Below are positions 3,011-4,636 of a stretch of 64,000 nucleotides of DNA, piece after piece. The notes beneath the pieces are model-generated. The model saw only the letters and a list, made by a program, of their open reading frames with translations, did not search any database and was not told where the DNA came from. This DNA comes from an uncultured Chlorobiaceae bacterium (GTDB taxonomy: Bacteria > Bacteroidota > Chlorobiia > Chlorobiales > Chlorobiaceae), in the NCBI GenBank assembly GCA_903940125.1, contig CAJAJL010000077.1, forward strand, positions 1 through 64,000, read 5' to 3'. The translations under genes were made by a program, and so were the position numbers. Every line of letters starts with the position of its first letter. Within the stretch, counting starts at the first letter, position 1.

Positions 3011-3094
3011 CCTGTGTGGCTCTTTTTGCCCTATACCTTACAGGAGCGGGGTCATCAATCTGTTCAGAGGCAGTCATCCGACTTTGCTTTTGAG

Positions 3095-3220
3095 CTGCGG
3101 GACGAAGACCAAGCGGAAGCCAATGTTGTTGTTCCGGTTGTCTGGCGGGTTGTTGTTACGATACGCCGACCGACAGTTCCCGGCAGGGTTGTTCCAGCTC
3201 CCGCCACGAAGTACACGGTC
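3095..3220 (-). repeat. Candidate DGR template repeat (TR-like), AAC-rich, apparently non-coding
   Basis: Minus strand CGTGTACTTCGTGGCGGGAGCTGGAACAACCCTGCCGGGAACTGTCGGTCGGCGTATCGTAACAACAACCCGCCAGACAACCGGAACAACAACATTGGCTTCCGC would read RVLRGGSWNNPAGNCRSAYRNNNPPDNRNNNIGFRLVFVPQ. All ten Asn codons are AAC. No FGE domain is encoded upstream. Confidence 0.65.
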
Positions 3221-3556
3221 CGAACCCACGATTAATGCCCTTGTTCTGCACTGGCCACCATTGTACTGTACACATTTTTTCTGAATTCTTTTGCATTGGC
3301 GTACTGTGTAAATGCCACCAATGGCATGGTGTGATTTGCAAACTGTTTTTGTGACCAACTGCCCGTTTGCAGGCAGTGGTCATAAAGCCGGGATTTCTGG
3401 ATAAAGCGCTTTTTGCTTCGCCGGGCAAGGCGTACTCGGTCTGGAAAGAGCTGTCACCGATGGGTATGGTAAAAAGTTTTATCTGCATGAACGTAGCGCG
3501 TTAAGCTGGTTTGATAACCCTGGAAGAGATCGTTATTATTTCAAAAAAATACGGTG

Positions 3557-3573
3557 GACCACCTTCGGTGGTC
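3557..3573 (-). terminator. Hairpin GACCACC-GAA-GGTGGTC followed by CACCGTATTTTTTTG on the minus strand: probable intrinsic terminator of the FGE fragment
   Basis: 7-bp perfect stem, T7 run 3' on the minus strand. Confidence 0.6.
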
Positions 3574-3597
3574 ATTTCTGTTGTCGGTTGTTACGGG

Positions 3598-3646
3598 AAA
3601 TCATGGCGCACGGCAGATCGTCCCTCACTGCCGTTCACCATGATTT
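3598..3646. repeat. Large imperfect palindrome: 19-nt arms (17/19 match), 11-nt loop
   Basis: aaatcatggcgcacggcag (3598-3616) against ctgccgttcaccatgattt (3628-3646). Confidence 0.8.
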
Positions 3647-3663
3647 TGTAACTGCCCTCTCGC

Positions 3664-4066
3664 TCAAAAGCAAAGCCGGAATGAGCTGCCAACTGACTGC
3701 GGGACGAAGACCAGGCGGAAGCCAATGGAGTAGGTGCGAGAAGCCGACCGACAGCGCTCAGCACTGAAGTGCCAGCTACCACCACGAAGCACACGGGACG
3801 AACGACTATCGTCATACCAGCTATCCGTCCATTCCCATACGTTTCCAGCCATGTCGTACAACCCCTCCGGTGTTGCTCCATCGGGATAGCTGCCGATAGG
3901 TGTTGTTGCTCCAACAGCATGATTGTAATTGGCCAATCGAACAGAGATATCTCCTTCTTCTTCGGGCCAGGGATTCGGTGGAGAAGTGCTTTGACGACTT
4001 GAAGAACGGTTTGGACATAAAGCGACTGGGGATGCACACTTCATCGCCTTGATCCGAACCCGGCAT
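3664..4066 (-). pseudogene. Formylglycine-generating-enzyme (SUMF1/FGE) family protein, C-terminal fragment; candidate DGR target
   Basis: ANYNHAVGATTPIGSYPDGATPEGLYDMAGNVWEWTDSWYDDSRSSRVLRGGSWHFSAERCRSASRTYSIGFRLVFVPQ is the canonical FGE C-terminus. The N-terminal two-thirds are absent, and the ORF start runs out of frame into ruvC. Confidence 0.8.
3697..3800 (-). repeat. Candidate DGR variable repeat (VR) at the 3' end of the FGE fragment
   Basis: CGTGTGCTTCGTGGTGGTAGCTGGCACTTCAGTGCTGAGCGCTGTCGGTCGGCTTCTCGCACCTACTCCATTGGCTTCCGCCTGGTCTTCGTCCCGCAG aligns to 3095-3220, with differences concentrated at TR adenines and a 24-nt length difference. Confidence 0.65.
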
Positions 4067-4072
4067 AGGATA

Positions 4073-4636
4073 CTACCGGACAACCTTATCAGGTGATGCA
4101 GCAACAAACTGTGACCAGCTGCTTTTCCCGCATCGGGCTTTTTGGACTGGAAGATAAGCATTTCGGCTCTCTCCTCTGAGCAGATCACAAAGAGCTATTC
4201 CAAGAGCATCAGTTACATCAAAAGGTTTAGGCGCCACAGTGAGACCAAGCATTCTTGTAACCATAAACGCTACCTGCTCTTTGCTTGCGGCACCTCTTCC
4301 TGTTATCGCCGATTTCACTTCACGTGGTGCATACTCATGCAGGGTAAGATGCTGGTTCATCGCCAGAGCAATCACTGCACCACGCACCTGACCAAGCTTA
4401 AGGGCTGACTGAACATTTCTGCTTAAAAATGCTGTTTCCAAAGCTATACGTTCAGGCTGAAAGTCTGTGATAACCTTTGCAAGCTCCCGATATATCTCAC
4501 CTATCCTCTCTGCATGACTACGACGAGGATGAAGACGGATGACACCGCATACAAGCACAGACAAAACTCCTGAACTCTCTTGAATCACACCGTAACCGGT
4601 ATTCAGACTTCCGGGATCAATCCCGAGAACAACCAT
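4073..4636 (-). CDS. ruvC: Crossover junction endodeoxyribonuclease RuvC
   Basis: [17 protein letters not shown]...[27 protein letters not shown]. Confidence 0.97.

Follow-up and report, generated by a model that had tools for sequence, protein, structure and literature searches.

The window analysed here covers 64,000 nucleotides (C77:1-64000) of a 2.98 Mb draft assembly that comprises 129 contigs and is 98.6% complete. Near its start, on the minus strand, lie parts of a DGR cassette (Table 1): a truncated FGE/C-type-lectin gene with a variable repeat (VR) at its 3' end, the beginning of an HRDC accessory gene, the end of a reverse transcriptase (RT) gene and an AAC-rich template repeat (TR). 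A sequence-only reading of this DNA had proposed a TR-like/VR-like repeat pair, and our comparison confirmed both repeats. The target gene keeps only the C-terminal part of the FGE domain (PF03781 positions 147-254 of 255, E = 5.5e-16), while its 5' end overlaps ruvC (4073-4636), into which its frame runs. Directly 3' of the TR we found a ParE-like toxin paired with an addiction-module antitoxin (2309-2865), followed by a partial integrase/recombinase-like open reading frame on the other strand (1505-1906) and an ISL3-type transposase cut at the contig end (1-1161). This edge of the contig is thus rich in mobile elements and prone to decay. The DNA 3' of the TR matches the corresponding side of the type II cassettes in two related loci (L076, L077) along 1.1-1.4 kb.

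Table 1. Features of the DGR cassette remnant in the window.
Feature	Position	Strand	Basis
TR-downstream block CTCAAAAGCAAAGTCGGATGACTGCC	3069..3094	-	Complementary to VR-downstream block; shared by every type II relative
Template repeat (TR), 131 nt, AAC-rich (28 A)	3095..3225	-	85-91% identity to RT-adjacent TRs of same-genus genomes
Type II DGR RT remnant, last 69 codons, open frame	3244..3450	-	Protein match and nucleotide alignment to relatives
HRDC accessory gene stub (MQIKLFTIPIGDS), joined to RT remnant	3451..3488	-	Alignment; full-length relative matches Pfam HRDC
VR-downstream block GGCAGCTCATTCCGGCTTTGCTTTTGAG	3663..3690	-	Reverse complement of TR block with few mismatches
Truncated FGE/C-type-lectin target ORF, 174 aa	3664..4188	-	PF03781 match
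Variable repeat (VR), 107 nt, 24 nt shorter than TR	3697..3803	-	Sequence comparison with TR

When aligned with one another (blastn, E = 2.7e-10), the two repeats differ predominantly at TR adenines: under optimal placement of the 24-nt gap, 12 of 18 TR adenines are changed in the VR vs 10 of 89 other positions. The codon changes reported earlier, from AAC to CAC, TTC, CGC, ACC, TAC and TCC and from TAT to TCT, are as described. The bias is sharper when the VR is compared with a consensus TR built from 17 relatives (14 of 22 adenines vs 5 of 85 other positions changed). The difference in length between the repeats, also noted before, is real; among the loci that we fetched it occurs only here, and we thus rejected it as an inherited trait. 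The 24 nt missing from the VR correspond to exactly one period between two AACAACAAC runs of the TR, and one could guess at template slippage during reverse transcription, with which such a loss is compatible. At window position 3097 (TR position 129) and at the matching VR base, both repeats read CCGCAG where the TRs of the 17 relatives read CCGTAG, which removes the stop codon of the target; this shared variant may mark the last copying event between the TR and the local VR.

The TR sequence was carried by 23 of 60 related genomes, all of the same genus (Chlorobium). Many of the homologues that match it best (85-91% identity) are found no more than about 20 nt from where an RT gene with the motifs IGNLTSQ and YMDD ends. 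Such an arrangement, with an RT frame of full length directly before the TR, occurs in at least six genomes (G003, G012, G018, G024, G028 and G031), and further relatives have contig-truncated RTs beside it. The order in these cassettes is target with VR, HRDC accessory ORF (identified by Pfam), RT and TR, and we refer to cassettes with an HRDC accessory gene and an RT that precedes the TR as type II. Within single relative genomes, TR/VR pairs differ at 11-24 of about 30 adenines but, for most pairs, at only 0-3 of about 100 other positions, often at none. These comparisons support the interpretation of the sequence-only reading, which had seen here a DGR TR with its decayed target and had named two observations that would speak against it, namely a lack of RTs in this and related genomes or substitutions spread equally over adenines and other bases. 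On the contrary, RTs of the matching type stand beside homologous TRs in many genomes of the genus, and the pairs in those genomes are almost purely adenine-specific.

The window TR differs from its VRs at more non-adenine positions than is usual among relatives (10 for the local VR and 14 for a second VR on contig C79), as expected once writing had been lost, and most of these differences in the window pair are later drift. At several sites the TR carries derived bases: position 6 is A in 17 of 17 relatives and G here, position 39 is A in 15 of 17 and C here, and position 46 is A in 14 of 17 and G here. Two earlier caveats can be re-read in this light. The changes from GGG to GAG and from CCT to AGT are non-adenine changes with respect to the window TR, but 14 of 17 relatives have an A at the former site and their consensus at the latter is AAT, meaning that it was the window TR that changed. 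Since the VRs match the consensus TR better than the local one, they were written from an older state of the TR, which has drifted since; the suspicion that the VR derived from an older TR and that activity was later lost is thereby borne out.

The VR on contig C79 matches the window TR without gaps at 102 of 131 positions; because this identity is only 78%, we infer the pairing of the two from family membership. Relative to the consensus TR, 16 of its 31 adenine positions are changed vs 7 of 100 others (Fisher p = 2e-7). Its gene is an intact frame of 1158 aa with calcineurin-like phosphoesterase, NACHT and FGE domains. Ordinary divergence of FGE paralogues, with the adenine bias a coincidence of AAC-rich sequence, could draw on the non-adenine differences and the gap in the local pair and on the frequency of FGE paralogues in the genome (8 matches), but we dismiss it, given that it is already refuted by the same-family pairs of relatives, that the C79 VR shows the same bias, and that the TR copy adjoins an RT remnant and is noncoding except for the stub.

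The earlier statement that the window holds no RT is correct for an intact gene, yet it overlooked a C-terminal remnant of 69 residues, which is 74% identical to residues 266-334 of the RT of L076 (E = 2.5e-26). The two motifs that characterise DGR RTs, (I/V/L)GxxxSQ and Y(V/M)DD, are present in the RTs of relatives and absent from the window cassette, which has also lost all of its accessory gene (Avd or HRDC) but the first ~13 HRDC codons. In L078, the counterpart of the sequence 5' of the RT remnant is the beginning of the HRDC gene together with the spacer between target and HRDC. This alignment and that of the remnant itself with L078 meet at a deletion junction at about 3450/3451, meaning that some 1.2 kb were lost. 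Remnants of target, HRDC gene, RT and TR are thus found in the order of a type II cassette and with an alignable junction, which points to a single deletion and suggests the order of events set out below. On its own the locus would be a modest discovery, one more relic of an already known type.

No type II RT was found elsewhere in the assembly: the query matched the remnant, a type I RT (described below), a group II intron RT and a negligible stretch of 22 aa, but no further piece of a type II RT, however small. Given that the genome is a draft, such an RT may lie in unassembled sequence, or the junction may be an assembly error. Indeed, an assembly of 129 contigs may well falter at DGR repeats, which are difficult to assemble, and the living strain would then carry an intact cassette. 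We consider an assembly or binning artefact very improbable, however, as the junction lies in unique sequence within a contig, the adjoining TR has drifted, the target is truncated and no further type II RT fragment was found in the assembly.

A search of the genome with RVT_1 suggested two RTs, of which the one on contig C102 proved to be a group II intron protein and the one on contig C78 the RT of a type I DGR (order: target, Avd as identified by Pfam bAvd, TR and RT). The latter is the only other DGR-type RT in the genome and is about 44% identical to type II RTs. Its gene is split inside the YVDD-C motif into two parts (L018 9568-10403, G000:C78; L021 9013-9408, G000:C72), and the interruption looks like a group II intron: a match to Rfam group-II-D1D4-2 (57 bits) starts at the break, and the 3' part of the RT, which lies at the end of C72, has a domain V match (36.9 bits, slightly below the gathering score of 40) ahead of it. 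Joining GTTGATGATT to GTGTCTTGTTTTCC restores VDDCVLFS, so that splicing would restore the frame, and C78 and C72 are probably contiguous through the intron. One retroelement seems to sit within the active site of another.

We saw no sign that the type I RT serves the orphan TR of the window. Such service in trans, by which the TR would still be live, has in its favour the presence of a type I RT and Avd, the restoration of the YVDD-C motif by exon joining across the intron and the good preservation of the blocks that flank TR and VR. It is nonetheless a remote prospect: the type I RT is distant from type II RTs and belongs to a cassette with another TR and another order, the VRs of that cassette lack the inverted block described below, and the 10-14 non-adenine differences between the window TR and its VRs speak against recent writing.

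The flanks of the two repeats hold a second regularity. In type II loci, the TR is followed by a sequence that begins with CTCA, the reverse complement of which lies about 5-35 nt past the end of nearly every VR. Across the RT clade (Chlorobi, Bacteroidetes and others), the 14-26 nt that follow the TR find their reverse complement in a block shortly past the VRs. We scanned 80 loci with related RTs (Chlorobi, Saprospiraceae, Bacteroidales, Chitinispirillales and others), 57 of which had an adenine-specific pair. In these 57 the mean local score between the TR flank and the reverse-complemented VR flank was 16.9, compared to 6.4 when dinucleotides were shuffled and 6.6 when the flanks were matched in direct orientation. 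For the 25 loci with distinct TR flanks, cognate pairs scored 15.1 on average vs 6.7 for non-cognate pairs, and none of 20,000 permutations reached the observed sum. The complementarity was not seen at four loci of the scan (L142, L164, L165 and L174).

We also aligned 30 distinct 14-bp blocks, leaving out L142, an outlier that does not pair, and six loci for lack of an anchor. In this alignment 95.5% of cells pair, 13 of 14 pairs have changes on both sides, and compensatory cells number 108 vs 31 in shuffles. Covariation was 0.716 vs 0.232 in shuffles and at most 0.22 in slid controls. The VR 14-mer in each case was the best match, and the same choice gave 8.5 of 14 for non-cognate vs 12.8 for cognate pairs. 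Genus-wide, the direct block was found at 22 sites, nearly all of them A-rich TRs, and the inverted block at 38, nearly all of them VRs. One exception (L085 890-1020 and 7175-7305, G029:C81) is a VR-like repeat that ends a frame of 1585 aa and has a TR-type downstream block. It looks like a product of recombination between TR and VR, which would be another route to DGR loss; no type II RT was found in the G029 genome.

Neither BPP-1-like nor Avd-type Chlorobium DGRs carry this signal. Among 27 distinct BPP-1-like viral DGRs there was no significant cognate complementarity (7.04 vs 6.75, p = 0.1), and the known GC hairpin can be seen in their VR flanks. Viral relatives of the type II RT in which the TR precedes the RT were near background and had higher self-complementarity; we did not count them as support, since the effect is tiny despite its p-value (6.66 vs 6.23, p = 0.02). 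Type I DGRs with Avd from the same Chlorobium genomes mostly gave background flank scores, with two at 11. The mean self-complementarity of VR flanks was 7.6 in the type II clade and 8.6 and 11.2 in the two viral sets. In place of the BPP-1-type target site, a self-complementary GC hairpin with a 4-nt loop 3' of the VR, the window has the inverted TR-flank match: the predicted RNA duplex between TR block and VR block reaches -45.8 kcal/mol for the window pair and -42.0 kcal/mol for C79, and the predicted self-fold of the window VR flank is weaker (-11.6 kcal/mol). A self-hairpin (GCTCA/TGAGC) after type II VRs was considered and rejected, as it is missing in L075 and L087. In BPP-1 itself (L195), positions +22 to +41 of the TR spacer could pair with the loop and 3' arm of the VR hairpin if a 3-nt bulge is allowed (score 11.5, shuffle p ~0.007). 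Given that the 27 BPP-1-like DGRs lack the signal, we take this match to be chance or a special case and not the same rule. At the level of sequence, complementarity, covariation, cognate specificity and their absence in controls are shown for the flanks of the type II clade.

The blocks also track writing, although this correlate is post hoc and based on few cases. In genomes with distinguishable TR subtypes (G014, G012, G006 and G028), all VRs with at most 3 non-adenine differences have a block that fits the TR explaining their body, except for ties between near-identical blocks. By contrast, VRs without a fitting block look unwritten, with 4 non-adenine differences in L093 (end 1997) and 13 and 47 in two VRs of G013. 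A stale VR in L190 (end 246; 6 non-adenine differences) has a block that fits in part.

Considering this, we propose the following course of events. The ancestral cassette would have comprised, in this order, a target gene with VR, an HRDC accessory gene, an RT and a TR. The RT would have copied TR RNA with errors opposite adenines, and the cDNA would have overwritten the VR at the 3' end of the local FGE target and, most likely, that of the remote C79 target. TR RNA or cDNA would pair with one strand just 3' of the VR and so direct writing to the right VR, standing in for the self-hairpin of BPP-1; in the RNA form, the partner would be the VR coding strand or the target mRNA. A deletion of about 1.2 kb would then have joined the first HRDC codons directly to the final 69 codons of the RT, after which writing would have ended and TR and VRs diverged.

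The main rival to target selection by pairing places the role of the blocks at the level of mRNA: TR RNA and target mRNA would pair for regulation (stability, translation or tethering of transcripts). Both blocks would be transcribed if transcripts pass the stop codon, VR and TR may share one transcript in the common cassette, and the predicted duplexes are strong. Against regulation, VRs without a block fitting the resident TR look unwritten (at least 4 non-adenine differences) while fresh VRs carry a fitting block, and the block occupies the site at which BPP-1 requires its homing hairpin (PMC3240598). We therefore regard regulation as unlikely, though a serious contender, and prefer target choice through pairing of TR RNA or cDNA with the VR-downstream block. 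With moderate confidence, we extend this to the whole clade (Chlorobi, Saprospiraceae, Bacteroidales and others), in which base pairing between TR and VR flanks would act as a co-evolving address tag that sets which TR writes which VR and replaces the BPP-1-type DNA hairpin. The explanation as a whole, a DGR killed by deletion together with the proposed pairing of the TR flank at the VR flank, appears to us highly probable.

In the window locus the death of a DGR can be followed clearly: the enzyme is lost, and the template, the end of the target and the address tags stay. The flank rule of the clade, found through this locus, outweighs the relic in interest. How DGR cDNA searches for and enters its target is incompletely understood (PMC12875486), and matching, co-evolving complementary tags may be how the copy finds it. 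The role of the hairpin after the BPP-1 VR was left open, with contact between its loop and the TR-containing RNA named as one of several possibilities (PMC3240598). Flank covariation amounts to a precise address code that can be tested by swapping, allows remote VRs to be assigned to their TRs and might help to retarget DGRs for use as mutagenesis tools in the laboratory. The literature that we searched, whose coverage omits key papers, does not mention complementarity between TR and VR flanks; in the text of the Treponema denticola study (PMC4891356), the words hairpin, inverted, complementary and downstream are absent. HRDC accessory genes (PMC3240598, PMC4891356) and partly lost DGRs (PMC4891356) were already known.

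DGRs have been described in Chlorobium phaeobacteroides and Pelodictyon phaeoclathratiforme in the DiGReF survey (PMC3521204), which the present system resembles in its green sulfur bacterial hosts, in multiple VRs per DGR and in its FGE-type target, a kind common in that survey. It differs in that the window cassette has no RT, and since the survey detects DGRs via their RT, this cassette would not be listed there. With BPP-1 (PMC3240598, PMC12875486) it shares TR and VR, adenine mutagenesis and a cis element directly 3' of the VR; BPP-1, however, has Avd, a TR that precedes the RT and a GC hairpin with a GRNA loop, whereas type II cassettes have HRDC, an RT that precedes the TR and a block complementary to the TR flank. 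The DGRs of Treponema denticola (PMC4891356) are similar in their HRDC gene overlapping the RT, their remote targets and the leftovers of lost cores, but have HRDC between TR and RT. Finally, DGR-diversified conflict-system proteins (PMC7159879, PMC10907252) join a variable FGE/C-type-lectin end to conflict-system domains; the window's own target differs from them as a truncated remnant, while the C79 target is comparable in its architecture.
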